NCBI RefSeq assembly: GCF_900100695.1
Contig: NZ_FNCF01000001.1
Location: forward strand, 248,001-312,000
Length of the DNA: 64,000 nt
Source of the DNA: Klenkia brasiliensis
GTDB taxonomy: Bacteria; Actinomycetota; Actinomycetes; Mycobacteriales; Geodermatophilaceae
Direction: 5' to 3'
A model generated the notes under the pieces. It saw only the letters and a program-made list of their open reading frames with translations. It was not told where the DNA came from and searched no databases. The position numbers were made by a program, and so were the translations under genes. Every line of letters begins with the position of its first letter. The first letter of the stretch is position 1. Shown here one piece after another: positions 23,516-32,086 of this stretch.

Positions 23516-25769
<2,254 letters not shown>

Positions 25770-25773
25770 GCGC

Positions 25774-25808
25774 CCGGACGGTGATCAGGTCACCTGATCA
25801 CCGTCCGG
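25774..25808. terminator. Bidirectional terminator-like perfect dyad
   Basis: Perfect 17-base arms (25774-25790 and 25792-25808) separated by one base lie between the convergent serC and ATP-grasp gene stops. No T-tract, as usual for very GC-rich actinobacteria. The exact symmetry could also make it a protein-binding site. Confidence 0.75.
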
Positions 25809-25815
25809 CGCGGCC

Positions 25816-27303
25816 TCAGCCCGGCGGCAGGAGCCAGGTGTCCTTGGACCCGCCGCCGCGGCTGGAGTTGACCAGCAGCGAGCCCTCCTCCAGGGCCACC
25901 CGGGTCAGCGGCGCGCGCACCGCGCGGGTGGTCGACCCGGCGACGGCGAACACCCGCAGGTCCGCCCGCCGGGGCACGACCACGCCGTCCACCAGCGTGG
26001 GCAGGGTGGAGAAGTCGACCGGCTCCTGGGCGACGAAGCGGTGCGGGGCGGCGTCGACCTCGGCCCCCAGCCGGGCCAGCTCCTCGGCCGAGCAGGTCGG
26101 CCCGAACACCACGCCCTGCCCGCCGTAGCCGTCGACCGGCTTGACCACCAGCTCCCCCAGCCGGCCGCGGACGGCGGCGAGGTCGTCGGCGTCGGCGAGC
26201 ACCCAGGTCGGCACGGTGGCCAGCACCGGCTCCTCCCCCAGGTAGAAGCGGATCATCGCCGGCACGTGGCAGTAGGTGGCCTTGTCGTCGGCGACCCCGT
26301 TGCCCGGCACGTTGGCCAGCGCCAGCCGCCCGGCCCGCACCGCGCCGCCGAGCAGCACGTCCAGCGGCGTGCCCACCGGGTTCAGGTGCGCGGCCAGGTC
26401 GTCGTCGTCGAAGCGCCGGTACAGCACGTCGACCGGCACCCGCTCGCCCTCGACGTCCACCGCGACGCCCCCCTCGGGCGTGGCCCACAGCCGGTCGGGG
26501 GTGGCGATCGGGATGCCCATCGCCTCGGCCAGCAGGCGGTGCTCGAACCAGGCCGTGTTGACCCGGCCGTCGGTGAGCAGGGCCAGCTGCGGCGGGCCGT
26601 CGCAGGCCGGGGGTGCGGCGTCGGCGAGCGCGGCGCGCAGCACGTCGACCGCCTCGGCCGGCTCGGCCAGGCCCACCCGGTCGGCGTAGAGACCGGGCAG
26701 CGCGGCGCGGGTGCTGTCGCGGTTGACGATGGCGTAGCCCAGGCCCGAGGGCACCCGCAGGTTGTCCTCCAGGACCACCCAGCCGTCGGCGGTGCGCAGC
26801 AGGTCCAGCCCGGCCACGGTGGCCCGCTGCTGGCCGGCCCAGGCCAGCGACACCGCCGCCGGGCGGTAGCCGGGGCTGCGGGTGACCAGCCAGCCGGGGA
26901 GCACCCCGGCGCGCACCGCCTCGGGTGCGGCGTCCCGGCCGTCGCCGCGCCGGCGGCCGGCGGGCCGGTAGGCGTCGGCGAGGAAGGCGTTCAGCGCCCT
27001 GGTGCGCTGCTCGACGCCGCGGGACAGGTGGTCCCAGTCCTCAGCGGCCAGCAGCCGGGGCAGCGGGTCGACCGGGAACGGGTGCTCGACCAGCTCACCG
27101 TCGACGAAGGAGCCGAAGACCACGCCGCGGGCACGCCGCTCACGGCCCATCTCGCCCACCGCGGCGGCCAGGCCCACCCCGCCGAGCGCCTCCAGCGCCG
27201 GCACGACCGCGCGGTAGCCCGGCCGGACGCCGCCGTCGGGTGCCACCGCCTCGTCGGCGGGGTGCGGTCGGTAGTGCGCGAACAGGTCGGTCGTGCCGGT
27301 CAT
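25816..27303 (-). CDS. Circularly permuted ATP-grasp ligase (type 2)
   Basis: A 495-residue CP_ATPgrasp_2 protein, an ATP-dependent carboxylate-amine/thiol ligase fold related to glutathionylspermidine synthetase. Family signatures: TDLFAHYRPHPADE, WDHLSRGVEQRTRALNAFLADAY, VLEDNLRVPSGLGYAIVNR, VNTAWFEHRLLAEAMGI, VDVLYRRFDDD, ANVPGNGVADDKATYCHVPAMIRFYLGEEP, and VVKPVDGYGGQGVVFGP, with the terminal VNSSRGGGSKDTW. Usually this family sits with alpha-E and transglutaminase-like genes; neither is here. Instead it ends an operon with an S9 peptidase (7-base gap) and an amidotransferase. ATG 27303 follows GAGGTGG. Likely forms a peptide bond (inference). Confidence 0.93.
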   Translation of the reverse strand: MTGTTDLFAHYRPHPADEAVAPDGGVRPGYRAVVPALEALGGVGLAAAVGEMGRERRARGVVFGSFVDGELVEHPFPVDPLPRLLAAEDWDHLSRGVEQRTRALNAFLADAYRPAGRRRGDGRDAAPEAVRAGVLPGWLVTRSPGYRPAAVSLAWAGQQRATVAGLDLLRTADGWVVLEDNLRVPSGLGYAIVNRDSTRAALPGLYADRVGLAEPAEAVDVLRAALADAAPPACDGPPQLALLTDGRVNTAWFEHRLLAEAMGIPIATPDRLWATPEGGVAVDVEGERVPVDVLYRRFDDDDLAAHLNPVGTPLDVLLGGAVRAGRLALANVPGNGVADDKATYCHVPAMIRFYLGEEPVLATVPTWVLADADDLAAVRGRLGELVVKPVDGYGGQGVVFGPTCSAEELARLGAEVDAAPHRFVAQEPVDFSTLPTLVDGVVVPRRADLRVFAVAGSTTRAVRAPLTRVALEEGSLLVNSSRGGGSKDTWLLPPG

Positions 27304-27310
27304 CGCCACC

Positions 27311-29155
27311 TCACAGCCAGCGGTCGAACCACTCCGCGATCGCCCCGGTCAGCGTCACCAGGTTCTCCCGGCCCACGACGGTGTGGCCCTCCCCCGCGAG
27401 CAGGAGCAGCTCGGCGGGCTTGTCCAGGGCCGTCAGCGCCCGGTGGGCCTGGACCGACTCCTCGACGGGGACGTTGGTGTCCCGGTCACCGTGCGCCAGC
27501 AGGACCGGTGAGCGCAAGGAGTCCAGGGCGGTCATCGGGCTGATCGTGGCCAGCATCTCCCGGTCGGTGACCGGGTCGCCGTACTCGGTGACCGACGCCG
27601 CGGCCATCCACGGCTCGGTGCGCTCGAAGAAGGTGCGCAGGTCGCTCATCCCGGCCAGCGACGCTCCGGCGGCGAACAGGTCGGGCCAGCGGGTCAGCGC
27701 GACCAGGGTCAGGTAGCCCCCGTAGGACCAGCCGTGCGCCCCGACCCGGCCCGGCGCGGCGATGCCCGCCGCGACCAGGTGCTCGACGGTGGCCGGGACG
27801 TCGGCGAAGGAGCCCTCGCGGTCGGCGACGTCGTCCATGCCCATGAACGCCGCGCCCCGCCCGCCCGAGCCCCGGACGTTCGGCGCGAACACGGTGACCC
27901 CGGTGGCGGCCAGCGCCTGCGCGACCGGCGACCAGGCCGGCCGCTCCTGGCCCTCGGGCCCGCCGTGGAAGCTGACGACGGTCCGGTTCGGGCCGCGCAC
28001 GCCCGGGGGCACGTACAGCCAGCCGTCCAGCTCCAGGCCGTCGGCGCCGCGGTAGTGGTGCCGCACCGGGCGGACCAGCAGCTCGCGGTCGGGCCGGCGC
28101 GGCGAACTGGGCAGCCGGGTGACCCCGCCGTCGACGAGGTCCACGACGTGCAGCGCCCTTGGGTCGGCCGGGCCGGTCAGCTCGGCCACCAGCGACCGCC
28201 CGTCGGCGGCCAGCGACCACCCGGGCATGACCGGCAGGGGCAGGTCTACCCGCCGCACCGGGGTGCCGTCGTCCACCCGGCGGACGTCGACCTCGGTGAC
28301 GCCGTCGACGGTCCAGACGCAGAGCACGGTGCCGTCGCCGCGCACCGCGTAGCCGTCCAGGTCGGCGTCCCGCCGGCGGACGACGACCCGGGCCTCGCCG
28401 GGCACGCCGTCGGCGTCGAGCGGGACGACGACGAGCGCGGTGCGGTCCTCGCCGGGGACGCCGGGCTGCGCGGCCCGCAGGTAGACCGACCGGCCGTCGG
28501 GGGCGAACCGGCCGTCCTCGCTCTGCCGCCCGCCGGGCGCCCCGGCCGGGATGACCCGCCGCTGGTCGCCGGAGGCGACGTCGACCAGCACGACGTGCCG
28601 CCAGCCGCGCGGGCCGCGGCGCACCAGCAGCCGGCCCTCGTCGGCCGACATCGAGGTCAGCGCCAGGAACCCGCCGCTGGCCACCGTGGAGCGCTCCCCG
28701 GTGACGACGTCGACCAGCACCACGTCGGCGCCCGGCCCCTCGGCGACGGTGCAGGCGTAGTGGCCGGGGCGGGCGGTCCAGCCGCCGGCGAACACGGTGG
28801 CGCCGGGGTGGCCGAGCACCAGCCGCCGGTCGGTGCCGTCGGGGCGCACGGCCCACAGCTGCGCGCGGATGGAGCCACCGGGGCTGACCAGGTAGGCCAG
28901 CCACTCCCCGTCCGGGGACCAGGCGACCGACACGACCTCCTGGCCGGGGCCGGACAGGACCGCCGGCGTCGTCCGCTGGTCCAGCGTCGCGACCTCCAGC
29001 TGCGGGGTGCCGCTGCGGTCGCTGACGTAGGCCACCCGTTCGCCGTCGGCGGCCAACGCCGGGCACCAGGCGCCGGCGGCGGAGGCGATGCGGGTGAGCG
29101 CCTCGCGGAGATCGGCGGGCAGACCGGTGGTCTGCTGGGGGTCGAGCCGGGTCAT
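27311..29155 (-). CDS. S9-family serine peptidase (prolyl oligopeptidase-like)
   Basis: A 614-residue two-domain peptidase. Residues ~30-350 form a WD40-like beta-propeller (VAWSPDGEWLAYL, GRFAPDGRSVYL) that gates the active site; ~370-614 is an alpha/beta hydrolase with Ser477 in GWSYGGY, an Asp at 557/559 in HGDRDTNVP, and His591 in GEGHTVV. Such acylaminoacyl/dipeptidyl peptidases hydrolyse short or blocked peptides. No signal peptide, so cytosolic. GGAGGTGGC lies just before ATG. A 78-base gap with a 6-base GC hairpin (29199-29215) separates it from the amidotransferase. Blocked-dipeptide cleavage would fit the locus. Confidence 0.93.
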   Translation of the reverse strand: MTRLDPQQTTGLPADLREALTRIASAAGAWCPALAADGERVAYVSDRSGTPQLEVATLDQRTTPAVLSGPGQEVVSVAWSPDGEWLAYLVSPGGSIRAQLWAVRPDGTDRRLVLGHPGATVFAGGWTARPGHYACTVAEGPGADVVLVDVVTGERSTVASGGFLALTSMSADEGRLLVRRGPRGWRHVVLVDVASGDQRRVIPAGAPGGRQSEDGRFAPDGRSVYLRAAQPGVPGEDRTALVVVPLDADGVPGEARVVVRRRDADLDGYAVRGDGTVLCVWTVDGVTEVDVRRVDDGTPVRRVDLPLPVMPGWSLAADGRSLVAELTGPADPRALHVVDLVDGGVTRLPSSPRRPDRELLVRPVRHHYRGADGLELDGWLYVPPGVRGPNRTVVSFHGGPEGQERPAWSPVAQALAATGVTVFAPNVRGSGGRGAAFMGMDDVADREGSFADVPATVEHLVAAGIAAPGRVGAHGWSYGGYLTLVALTRWPDLFAAGASLAGMSDLRTFFERTEPWMAAASVTEYGDPVTDREMLATISPMTALDSLRSPVLLAHGDRDTNVPVEESVQAHRALTALDKPAELLLLAGEGHTVVGRENLVTLTGAIAEWFDRWL

Positions 29156-29233
29156 GCCACCTCCAAGGGTCGTCTCCGGGGTGCAGCGGGGAGCCCCCGC
29201 CCGGTGTTCCCGGGCGTCATCGGCAGTGCGGGG

Positions 29234-31018
29234 TCAGCGGATGCCCTGCCGCTGCAGCCACAGCTCCAGCAGCCCCACCTGCCACAGCTGGTTGCTGCCC
29301 AGCGTGGTGCGGTGGGTGTTGGGGTCGGCCAGCAGCCGGTCGACGTAGTCGGTGCGGAACAGGCCGCGCTCCTTCGCCTCGGGGGCGTGCAGCGCCGCCC
29401 GCACGCTGGCCAGGTACTCGCCCTCGAGGTGGATGATCGCCGGCACCGGGAAGTAGCCCTTGGGCCGGTCGATGACGTGCGCCGGGATGACCGCGCGGGC
29501 GGCCTCCTTGAGCACGCCCTTGCCGCCCTGCGCGAGCTTGAGCTCCGGGGGGACGGCGGCGGCGAGCTCCACGAACTCGTGGTCCAGGAACGGCACGCGG
29601 GCCTCCAGCCCCCACGCCATCGTCATGCTGTCCACCCGCTTCACCGGGTCGTCGACCAGCATGATCGTCGAGTCCAGCCGCAGCGCCCGGTCCAGCGTGG
29701 TGTCGGCACCCGGGCGGGCGAAGTGCTCGGCGACGAACGCCCGGCTGGCGTCCTCGGTGAGCAGCCAGCGGTCGGCGAGGATGCCGGCCAGCTCGGCGTG
29801 CGGCCGGTCGACGAAGACCGAGGAGTAGGCGTCCACCGCCCGCTCCACCGGCACGCCGTCCAGCGGCGGGTACCAGTCGTAGCCGGCCAGCACCTCGTCG
29901 GCGCCCTGCCCGCTCTGCACCACCTTGACGTGCTGGCTGACCTGCTGGGCGAGCAGGTAGAAGGCCACGCAGTCGTGGCTGACCATCGGCTCGGCCATCG
30001 CGCCGATCGCGCCGTCCAGGCCCGCGTGCACGTCGGCGGTGGGCACCAGCAGCCGGTGGTGGTCGGTGCCGAAGTGCTCGGCGACGACGTCGGAGTAGGC
30101 GAACTCGTCGCCCTCGCGCCCGCCGACGGCCTCGAAGCCGATGGAGAAGGTGGCCAGGTCGCGCTGCCCCTCCTCGGCGAGCAGGCCCACGATCAGCGAC
30201 GAGTCCAGGCCGCCGGACAGCAGGACGCCGACCGGGACGTCGGCGACCATCCGCCGGCGCACCGCCGTCCGCAGGCTGTCCAGCACCGCGTCCTGCCACT
30301 CGACCGGGGACAGACCCGCCAGGTCGGGACGGCGTTCGTGCACCGGCGACCAGTAGACGTGGTCGGACTCGCGGCCGTCGGGCTCGTAGGTGCGCACCGT
30401 GGCCGGCGGCAGCTTGCCGACCCCGGCCAGGATCGTGCGCGGCGCCGGGACGACGGAGTGGAAGCTCATGTAGTGGTGCAGCGCCACCGGGTCGATCGAG
30501 GTGTCCACACCGCCGGCCCGCACCAGCGCCGGCAGGCTGGAGGCGATCCGCACCCGGCCCGGGCCGCGGCTGAGGTAGACCGGCTTGATGCCCAGCCGGT
30601 CCCGCGCCACGACCACCCGGCCGGTGTCCCGCTCGACGACGACGAAGGCGAACATGCCGTAGAACCGCTCGACGCAGGCCGCGCCCCAGCGGTGGTAGGC
30701 CTTGAGCACGACCTCTGTGTCGCTGGTGGAGCCGAACCGGTAGCCCGCGGCGCGCAGCTCCTCGCGCAGCTCGCGGTAGTTGTAGACGATCCCGTTGAAC
30801 ACGCAGGTCAGCCCGAGCTCGAGGTCGACCATCGGCTGCGCGCCGGCGTCGCTGAGGTCGATGATCTTGAGCCTGCGGTGGCCGAGCGCGACCGGCCCGG
30901 ACTGCCACGCACCCGACCCGTCGGGCCCGCGCCGGGCCAGCTGCTCGCACATGGCGGCCACGGCGCCCACGTCGGCGACCCCGCCGTCGAACCTGATCTC
31001 GGCCGCGATGCCGCACAC
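29234..31018 (-). CDS. Asparagine-synthase-like amidotransferase, NAGGN type
   Basis: Class II glutamine amidotransferase fused to an AsnB-type ATP-pyrophosphatase, 594 residues. Cys2 follows the GTG start (CGIAAEIRFDGG); synthetase P-loop SGGLDSS at 268-274. The pattern QPMVDLELGLTCVFNG, RLGIKPVYLSRGPGRVRIAS and VALHHYMSFHSVVPAPRTIL matches N-acetylglutaminylglutamine amidotransferase (AsnO, TIGR03104-like) better than housekeeping AsnB. That enzyme amidates a blocked dipeptide to make the osmolyte NAGGN. GAGGAGG precedes GTG. First gene of an operon with an S9 peptidase and ATP-grasp ligase; the usual GNAT/ATP-grasp synthetase and M42 peptidase are absent from the window. Confidence 0.9.
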   Translation of the reverse strand: MCGIAAEIRFDGGVADVGAVAAMCEQLARRGPDGSGAWQSGPVALGHRRLKIIDLSDAGAQPMVDLELGLTCVFNGIVYNYRELREELRAAGYRFGSTSDTEVVLKAYHRWGAACVERFYGMFAFVVVERDTGRVVVARDRLGIKPVYLSRGPGRVRIASSLPALVRAGGVDTSIDPVALHHYMSFHSVVPAPRTILAGVGKLPPATVRTYEPDGRESDHVYWSPVHERRPDLAGLSPVEWQDAVLDSLRTAVRRRMVADVPVGVLLSGGLDSSLIVGLLAEEGQRDLATFSIGFEAVGGREGDEFAYSDVVAEHFGTDHHRLLVPTADVHAGLDGAIGAMAEPMVSHDCVAFYLLAQQVSQHVKVVQSGQGADEVLAGYDWYPPLDGVPVERAVDAYSSVFVDRPHAELAGILADRWLLTEDASRAFVAEHFARPGADTTLDRALRLDSTIMLVDDPVKRVDSMTMAWGLEARVPFLDHEFVELAAAVPPELKLAQGGKGVLKEAARAVIPAHVIDRPKGYFPVPAIIHLEGEYLASVRAALHAPEAKERGLFRTDYVDRLLADPNTHRTTLGSNQLWQVGLLELWLQRQGIR

Positions 31019-31144
31019 GAGCGCCTCCTCCCGCCCGACCGGTGCCGGGCTGGACTCCGGGTGCCCACCCTGCCCGCTCCGTGTTGCGTCGGCATGTCCC
31101 AGGGGTCGGGCGTGTCCGGGCCCGGTCGGCACCGCGTGCCGGGT

Positions 31145-31150
31145 TAGCCT
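31145..31150 (+). promoter_or_regulatory. Candidate -10 of sepH
   Basis: TAGCCT lies 45 bases before the ATG; here a leader with CGGAGG ribosome site exists. The 177-base divergent gap to the amidotransferase gene shows no other clear element. Confidence 0.4.
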
Positions 31151-31195
31151 CGGCGCTGGTCCCGTGTCCCTGCCCGTCCCCCGGAGGTCGACCCC

Positions 31196-32086
31196 ATGCG
31201 CACGCTGCGCCTCGTGGCGATCTCCGACGACGGGAAGAACCTGGTGCTGGCCGCCGACGTCCCCGACTCCATCGACAACGGCGAGCGCTTCCACCTGCCG
31301 ATCGACGACCGGCTGCGGGCCGCCGCCCGCGGGGACGCGCAGCGGATGGGCCAGATCGAGCTCGACGCGGCCAACGCGCTGCCCCCGCGGGTCATCCAGG
31401 CCCGCATCCGCGCCGGCGAGACGCCCGAGCAGGTCGCGCACGCCTCGGGGACGTCGGTCGAGCGGATCATGCGGTTCGCCCACCCGGTGCTGCAGGAGCG
31501 CGCCCGGGTGGCCGAGCAGGCGCAGGGTGCGCGGGTGCGGCTGTCCGAGGGCACCCCCGGCGTCGCGCTGCAGCAGTTCATGTCCGACCGGCTGCGGCTG
31601 CTGGGCGCCGACCTCGACGGCGTGCGCTGGGACGCCTCCCGCGCCGAGGACGGCACCTGGGCGGTGCGCGCGGCGTGGAAGGCCGGGCACAAGTCCGGCA
31701 CCACCCGGTGGAGCTTCGACACCACCACCCGCACGGTCACCCCGCTGGACGCCACCACGATGGACTTCGCCGAGGGCACCCGGCTGGTGCGGGTGGTCCC
31801 CGACGTGCCGGCCGGCCTGCCCGCGGCTCCCCCGCGCCGTGCCGTCGCCGCCGTCCCCGCCGAGGAGGACCGGACGCCGGAGCCGAGCCCCGCCCCCGAG
31901 GACGACGAGGTGCGCAACGTCGTCCCCGTCGACGGCAGCCCGGTCGACGTCCTGCTCTCCGGCGACGGCGGCCCCGAGCACGACACGGTCGTCTTCGACC
32001 GGGTGCTCGACCCGGAGGCCGAGGACCCGCGCGCGGCGATCCCGGCGTGGGAGGACATCGTCTTCGGGGTCCGCCGCCACCGCTGA
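31196..32086 (+). CDS. sepH: Cell-division regulator SepH
   Basis: Actinobacterial septation protein that stimulates FtsZ assembly, 296 residues. The N-terminal DUF3071 region MRTLRLVAISDDGKNLVLAADV and the helix-turn-helix-like segment PPRVIQARIRAGETPEQVAHASGTSVERIMRFAHPVLQER are diagnostic; a disordered Pro/Glu-rich linker follows, and the C-terminus carries the conserved AWEDIVFG. Cytosolic, acting at the Z ring. CGGAGG lies upstream with good spacing. It is divergent from the amidotransferase operon and monocistronic, with its own promoter. Confidence 0.95.
   Translation: MRTLRLVAISDDGKNLVLAADVPDSIDNGERFHLPIDDRLRAAARGDAQRMGQIELDAANALPPRVIQARIRAGETPEQVAHASGTSVERIMRFAHPVLQERARVAEQAQGARVRLSEGTPGVALQQFMSDRLRLLGADLDGVRWDASRAEDGTWAVRAAWKAGHKSGTTRWSFDTTTRTVTPLDATTMDFAEGTRLVRVVPDVPAGLPAAPPRRAVAAVPAEEDRTPEPSPAPEDDEVRNVVPVDGSPVDVLLSGDGGPEHDTVVFDRVLDPEAEDPRAAIPAWEDIVFGVRRHR

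Follow-up and report, generated by a model that had tools for sequence, protein, structure and literature searches.

The closest described relative of the locus considered here is the NAGGN cassette asnO-ngg-M42, in which a glutamine amidotransferase (TIGR03104), the dipeptide synthetase Ngg (TIGR03103) and an M42 peptidase (TIGR03106) are encoded together, as at PA3459-PA3461 in Pseudomonas aeruginosa (PMC8070244). A more divergent arrangement is the "asnO-ngg" cluster of Frankia, whose asnO is >60% identical to others, whose "Ngg" is <15% identical to known Ngg, and which has a dipeptidase gene between the two (PMC5563000). Within our window, the whole 64,000-nucleotide stretch of Klenkia brasiliensis DNA analysed, a trio of minus-strand genes shares with the NAGGN cassette the amidotransferase family, the three roles of ligase, amidotransferase and peptidase, and a partly interchangeable distribution, but carries a circularly permuted (CP) ATP-grasp and an S9 peptidase in place of Ngg and M42. 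The first-pass annotation had described this trio correctly and had read it as an alternative to the NAGGN cassette. We put at about 0.58 the probability that this operon represents a second actinomycete system, one based on a NAGGN-type amidotransferase, making a neutral N-capped peptide amide that is likely a compatible solute.

Stated more loosely, the trio probably makes and recycles a small amidated peptide in this soil actinomycete with a ligase and a peptidase unlike those of the NAGGN cassette, and that peptide is perhaps a salt- and drought-protecting solute. An ATP-dependent ligase would build a short N-capped peptide from amino acids, most likely units of glutamine or glutamate; in Klenkia this ligase would be a CP ATP-grasp alone, in other genomes GCS2, either by itself or paired with a CP ATP-grasp. 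The TIGR03104 enzyme would then amidate the C-terminal carboxyl with the amide nitrogen of glutamine to yield a neutral peptide amide, which the S9 peptidase would hydrolyse once it is no longer needed. The substrates, the N-cap, the product, the peptidase's substrate and the osmolyte role, likely that of a compatible solute which either is NAGGN or can take its place, are all what we infer here, and in Klenkia the product may be an amidated dipeptide.

The first gene of the operon (29234..31018, minus strand) encodes the NAGGN-type glutamine amidotransferase (TIGR03104, PF13537, PF00733), whose 594 aa run from a GTG start at 31018 to a stop codon with its last base at 29234 and have a Cys directly following the start; the open frame as such extends to 32104, and position 1 of the TIGR03104 match decided the choice of start. 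Its score of 961.6 bits against TIGR03104 (cut-off 570.1) confirms the earlier placement in the N-acetylglutaminylglutamine subgroup, and it is the single match above cut-off in the whole Klenkia genome. The protein also passes the cut-off of the asparagine synthase model TIGR01536 (410.4 vs 267.1 bits), and the syntenic block in Geodermatophilaceae could hold unrelated genes together, so one might see here an ordinary asparagine synthetase beside a housekeeping peptidase and ligase. This we regard as very improbable: the best curated-family match is TIGR03104 rather than asparagine synthetase B, in other taxonomic families these protein families again occur together, in different gene orders and neighbourhoods, and the class-wide census below, in which peptidase type follows ligase type, already contradicts it.

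Separated from this gene by 78 bases lies the S9 family peptidase (27311..29155, minus strand; 614 aa), composed of beta-propeller repeats and a prolyl-oligopeptidase domain (PF00326, 151.7 bits), with no signal peptide detectable by eye. Its nearest solved chain is 5l8s, an "amino acyl peptidase" (E 1e-32), and acylamino-acid-releasing enzymes are also among its solved relatives, a point in favour of the peptide-amide reading. The triad and catalytic domain of acylaminoacyl peptidases (S9C) are present in the trio's protein; across aligned cassette S9 proteins, the Ser and Asp catalytic motifs are found in 64 of 64 and the His motif in at least 58. The S9C enzymes are thus its nearest solved relatives, although the matched region spans about half of the protein and no NCBIfam cut-off is passed. 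Kinship to solved enzymes so named is what suggests that it may cleave N-acylated peptides.

The third gene (25816..27309, minus strand) encodes the CP ATP-grasp type 2 ligase (CP_ATPgrasp_2), starting at GTG 27309 or ATG 27303 and ending at 25816; of the two gaps given in the first-pass annotation, the 78 bases stand, while the 7 bases hold only for the ATG and shrink to 1 for the GTG. The protein scores 360.9 bits against PF14403 (gathering score 32) and keeps all the ATP-grasp motifs (VLEDN, DDK, VKPVDG and NSSRGGGSKDTW), and dN/dS of the ligase is 0.11-0.29 in four Klenkia-like pairs. The ligase half of Ngg is also an ATP-grasp, so that it and CP_ATPgrasp_2 belong to one superfamily, from which they part in family and permutation; the idea that both ligase and hydrolase come from folds unrelated to those of the NAGGN cassette is therefore right for the hydrolase (S9 vs M42) and wrong for the ligase.

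Like the CP_ATPgrasp_2 ligases that sit with alpha-E and transglutaminase-like genes, the trio's ligase belongs to PF14403 and has 3n6x as its nearest solved structure (E 7.3e-89), which spans it at the sequence level, and in three of three PF14403 relatives tested alpha-E adjoins the ligase, one of these being also beside a transglutaminase-like N-terminal domain. By analogy with what has been proposed for those relatives, the ATP-grasp and the amidotransferase might modify a protein or ribosomal peptide, with the S9 enzyme removing the tag. We think this improbable. A Pfam scan of the seven flanking window proteins returned a SerC-like aminotransferase, DUF3071, YflT, a SpoU methylase, citrate synthase, an amine oxidase and PNPOx, and among them neither alpha-E (PF04168) nor a transglutaminase-like gene, the trio's partners being an amidotransferase and S9 instead. 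In the ligase tree, the ligases of the amidotransferase-S9 system fall in groups apart from 13 alpha-E/transglutaminase-type relatives. Moreover, the enzyme that replaces these ligases, Ngg, is a dipeptide synthetase (PMC8070244), which points to a small molecule. Two of the flanking genes, SepH/DUF3071 (31196..32086, plus strand; PF11268) and the convergent SerC-like aminotransferase (24651..25769, plus strand; PF00266), lie outside the system and serve as synteny anchors, both adjoining the cassette in relatives. The divergent intergenic stretch towards SepH (31019..31195) is, by its position, the place for a promoter; a consensus scan of 25700-31250 returned neither a sigma-70-like promoter nor a terminator-like site.

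A canonical NAGGN synthetase elsewhere in the genome, which would speak against an alternative cassette, is absent: the best TIGR03103 match in the Klenkia genome reaches 37 bits against a cut-off of 569, and TIGR03106 has no M42 match there at E <= 1e-30. No acetyltransferase partner was identified in this genome, which counts against our reading. Weak GNAT matches are present. Three GCS2 genes lie away from the trio, none shown to belong to the system; the one on G000:C7, at 40% to fused GCS2, is not convincing as a missing partner, since genes of comparable similarity are present in G013, which has a degenerate ligase, and G009, which has Ngg.

The trio belongs to a wider pattern. A census of the class (246 genomes, Klenkia window left out) comprises 80 TIGR03104 loci, of which 41 have Ngg nearby, 36 have GCS2 and/or a CP ATP-grasp, and none has both. 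Peptidase type tracks ligase type: M42 is near 26/41 Ngg loci and 0/39 others, S9 near 0/41 and 31/39, respectively. This split indicates that two actinomycete systems share one amidotransferase. Since 39 of the 80 loci have no adjacent Ngg, a TIGR03104 match alone is no proof of a NAGGN synthetase. The partnership of ligase and amidotransferase, once thought unusual, is found again in several families of actinomycetes, where the ATP-grasp is mostly attached to a GCS2 ligase. GCS2 itself (YbdK-type carboxylate-amine ligases; PF04107, TIGR02050) is joined to the cassette or lies next to it in 34 of the 39 non-Ngg loci, but is not adjacent in the Klenkia window, which has the ATP-grasp without it; conversely, 11/80 loci have GCS2 without the ATP-grasp. 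Such variable make-up implies that the ligase does not stand for a single chemistry, which counts against our reading.

The status of the trio as an alternative to the NAGGN cassette is supported; part of this system had already been noticed in Frankia (PMC5563000). In f30, the family holding a Frankia MAG, a GNAT gene is beside the cassette in 17/23 loci, again a point for the peptide-amide reading; GCS2-ATP-grasp lies upstream and GNAT downstream, neither being beside the window trio. The published Frankia cluster would fit the amidotransferase - S9 - GNAT order of these loci, although the available text of that report does not mention GCS2 or ATP-grasp (PMC5563000). As expression evidence we considered Frankia alni FRAAL1888, a PEG-induced gene to which a part in NAGGN synthesis is ascribed (PMC5768760), and dropped it because the sole TIGR03104 match in the genome taken to be that of strain ACN14a lies near 4.87 Mb, at odds with the roughly 2 Mb estimated from the gene number.

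Within Geodermatophilaceae the block is syntenic. Among the sampled relatives, 10 other genomes have the trio between SepH/DUF3071 and SerC, and two more distant ones have it in a different gene order without these neighbours, so that the grouping exceeds chance; the worry that the genes might rarely be adjacent in relatives is thereby answered. The ligase is degenerate in 28/43 SepH-site loci, which could suggest a fading relic displaced by imported Ngg operons and no longer of consequence in Klenkia; the low dN/dS and intact motifs of Klenkia-like ligases make this the least credible reading of all. Where the ligase is intact, Ngg is absent in 14/15 genomes, the exception (L106), a MAG, counting against our reading; where it is degenerate, Ngg is present in 23/26, and the remaining three also lack TIGR03104. 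Five Modestobacter-group genomes combine Ngg and a degenerate ligase with a single TIGR03104, which belongs to the cassette and is not on the contig of Ngg. This reciprocal pattern, and the presence of the cassette amidotransferase as the only one alongside Ngg, suggest that both systems make the same or an interchangeable product, possibly an N-capped glutaminylglutamine amide or something akin to it; this is not proof, as four genomes (G020, G060, G061, G063) carry both Ngg and a GCS2-ATP-grasp cassette with intact motifs, which counts against our reading. Because the genomes are related, the counts are not independent. The degenerate ligases are still under constraint and hence not simply dead genes, a further count against it.

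The four genomes with both systems, together with the GCS2 association, are what one would expect if the cassette made a different amidated compound for another purpose (e.g., gamma-glutamyl-glutamine amide or a longer peptide), sharing only the amidotransferase with NAGGN. We judge this unlikely, though the most serious rival, since an intact ligase and Ngg are largely mutually exclusive in Geodermatophilaceae and Micromonospora and five genomes have Ngg with the cassette amidotransferase only. A more specific form of the peptide-amide reading, which we advance tentatively at somewhat under even odds, is a second, non-orthologous route to an N-capped glutaminylglutamine-type amide osmolyte, with a GCS2 and/or CP ATP-grasp synthetase, acylaminoacyl-type S9 recycling and, in Frankia's family, a free-standing GNAT to provide the cap; it would have undergone mutual displacement with Ngg more than once, Ngg now working with the cassette amidotransferase in one Modestobacter group. 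That group offers a direct test of amidotransferase sharing. If our reading is true, there is more than one biosynthetic origin for osmolyte peptide amides, and a function can be given to a branch of CP_ATPgrasp_2, whose nearest solved structure 3n6x is only putatively named, and to GCS2-ATP-grasp fusions.

Published work counts "NAGGN" clusters among the core ones of Micromonospora (PMC11537254, PMC12915310). ABAGG from Micromonospora is an anthranilate-glycine-glycerol ester unrelated to the system (PMC10513789), and the available part of PMC10979467 holds nothing on an amidotransferase-S9-ligase system. That the core clusters are all of the GCS2/ATP-grasp type is disproved, Ngg being present in 29/41 Micromonospora genomes, GCS2-ATP-grasp in 7/41 and both in 0/41. 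One genome (G094) carries Ngg and a CP ATP-grasp at 47% identity, which counts against our reading. Replacement of Ngg in place by the fused cassette is not supported: in the one pair compared (L145, L059), the gene calls have the amidotransferase alone in common.

First, the three-gene system of the window is an alternative to the N-acetylglutaminylglutamine amide (NAGGN) cassette that is widespread among actinomycetes, and, judging from sequence, its product is likely the same as, or interchangeable with, that of the NAGGN cassette. As the first-pass annotation had described, three genes sit side by side on one strand (minus): the TIGR03104 amidotransferase is encoded at 29234-31018, the S9 peptidase at 27311-29155 and the CP_ATPgrasp_2 protein at 25816-27309. 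It had further proposed looking for the canonical NAGGN synthetase (Ngg, TIGR03103) elsewhere in the genome; across the 4.45 Mb (14 contigs, completeness 99.97%) the best match reaches at most 37 bits (cut-off 569), the M42 peptidase of the NAGGN cassette (TIGR03106) gave no match at E <= 1e-30, and a single TIGR03104 match lies over its cut-off. The partnership also recurs: among 41 related genomes, the window's own included, 25 TIGR03104 loci exceed the cut-off (in 24 genomes), of which 14, counting the window, are adjoined by a CP ATP-grasp gene, with S9 in 13 of these, and 11 by Ngg. M42 is over cut-off in just 3 of the 13 Ngg genomes of this sample. In G036, G025 and G020, a GCS2 domain precedes the ATP-grasp within a single open frame.

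Across the class, TIGR03104 matches 81 loci in 80 of 246 genomes. When the neighbours of the 80 loci other than the window's are scored (same strand, up to 6.5 kb away or 5 kb for GCS2, identity of at least 35% and at least 70 bits), 41 have Ngg, 23 GCS2 plus ATP-grasp, 11 GCS2 alone, 2 ATP-grasp alone (L196, a short contig, and L258, a fragment only), 2 S9 alone and one, L265, none. M42 lies near 26 of 41 Ngg loci vs 0 of 39 others, and S9 near 0 of 41 vs 31 of 39, a 30% match in L206 falling under the limit. The order GCS2, amidotransferase, S9 without CP ATP-grasp occurs at 11 census loci (L247, L249, L250, L252-L256, L260, L261, L263); in L246 and L248, S9 stands beside the amidotransferase and no ligase adjoins. 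Since GCS2-only and ATP-grasp-only forms exist, the ligase step has no single fixed chemistry.

A search with the ligase alignment matched 249 relatives, the best 80 of which were used; in these, the closest named ligases are from Klenkia (up to 93% identity). Of the 80, 43 occupy the Geodermatophilaceae site between the SepH/DUF3071 and SerC-like aminotransferase genes (the SepH site), 14 are GCS2-ATP-grasp loci (amidotransferase in 13, S9 in 10) and 23 lack the amidotransferase, an alpha-E gene adjoining the ligase in all three tested. The 14 come from Micromonospora, Actinoplanes, Catenuloplanes, Sphaerisporangium, Actinoallomurus, Pseudonocardia, a Frankia MAG and an Actinomycetes MAG; Ngg over cut-off was sought for eight of them outside Geodermatophilaceae and found in none. 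In the ligase tree (53 rows), SepH-site and GCS2-type proteins form two supported groups, jointly separate from 13 of the 23 ligases without the amidotransferase. The amidotransferase tree (57 rows) unites all 20 SepH-site rows, and its backbone is open, so the older type is not readable from it.

Second, ligase integrity at the SepH site tracks the absence of Ngg. Sorted by eye on the motifs LEDN, DDK, KP and NSS, 15 of 43 ligases are intact and 28 have partly lost them, L112 mildly so. The Ngg search covered the genomes of 41 loci (all but L127 and L133, the latter a second contig of the strain carrying L132): 14 of 15 with intact ligases lack Ngg, the exception being a MAG (L106), and 23 of 26 with degenerate ligases have it (Fisher p = 2.6e-7, inflated by kinship of the genomes). 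The window's genome, G002 and G005 add to the pattern, with motifs intact and Ngg absent. Taken together, motif table and tree point to some three separate losses accompanied by Ngg: in a Blastococcus/Geodermatophilus group, in M. lapidis, and in L115 plus the Modestobacter VKM group. Among the genomes with intact ligases, the TIGR03104 search covered all but six (L099-L102, L111, L114); L110, L112 (a MAG) and L132 combine a degenerate ligase with neither Ngg nor a TIGR03104 match, and in the intact L103 and L106 the amidotransferase is a contig-end fragment only.

S9 adjoins the degenerate ligase in 23 of 23 Ngg genomes (fragmented in L118). Degenerate ligases have dN/dS of 0.15-0.45 (8 pairs) vs 0.11-0.33 for intact ones (6 pairs), so that these proteins retain some role. 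At the SepH site of Blastococcus and relatives (e.g., L119-L139), the motif-less ATP-grasp frames remain open beside S9, and five such pairs (dN/dS 0.15-0.32) are under constraint, as a conserved pseudo-ligase. In L115, L117, L122, L125 and L129, with degenerate ligase and Ngg, the sole TIGR03104 match is the cassette's, on a different contig from Ngg, and the 18-kb surroundings of Ngg (L066, L067, L184-L186) hold no amidotransferase; either the cassette amidotransferase serves Ngg or Ngg works without any. Trehalose synthesis genes lie near the Geodermatophilaceae Ngg locus (L041 4250-5665; L066 10582-12743), with GT20 in both and trehalose phosphatase in L066, as would suit an osmolyte neighbourhood. 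At L068 7223-8764 (G011:C7), a second copy of Ngg looks broken, with two separate matching stretches.

Counting against an interchangeable product, as do the variable ligase step and the constraint on degenerate ligases, four genomes (G020, G060, G061, G063) hold Ngg together with a GCS2-ATP-grasp cassette with intact motifs, and Micromonospora G094 has Ngg plus a CP ATP-grasp of 47% identity. Supporting the reciprocal pattern instead, of 41 Micromonospora genomes centred on G082, itself picked as a cassette carrier, 29 have Ngg, 7 GCS2-ATP-grasp (at least 91% identity; two pieces in G082), none both and 5 neither; the seven copies are near-identical and thus possibly reflect a single event.

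Third, 17 of the 23 loci in f30, the family to which the Frankia MAG's genus belongs, have a GNAT gene (PF00583) 3′ of the cassette, in one case on the opposite strand; contig ends truncate three (L148, L196, L207) of the other six. It directly follows the amidotransferase in L225, L232, L244 and L245, where no S9 was detected, and at E <= 1e-4 it was found in none of the remaining loci from L037 upward. According to an excerpt of PMC5563000, asnO of Casuarina Frankia is >60% identical to others and its “Ngg” <15%, with a dipeptidase gene separating the two; from that excerpt we infer agreement with the f30 order amidotransferase, S9, GNAT. A full-text literature search, with most subscription papers outside its scope, never returned “N-acetylglutaminylglutamine” together with “ATP-grasp”, nor, among the matches listed, a title naming this actinomycete system.

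Finally, GCS2 and ATP-grasp lie in different reading frames in Micromonospora L141 (8833-11400), either a gene split or a sequencing error, and in a single frame in L145, L146 and L157. Two Micromonospora genomes carry divergent second TIGR03104 copies (L182 7845-9677; L265 6816-8600), without ATP-grasp and with a GCS2 gene (~40% identity) nearby on the opposite strand.
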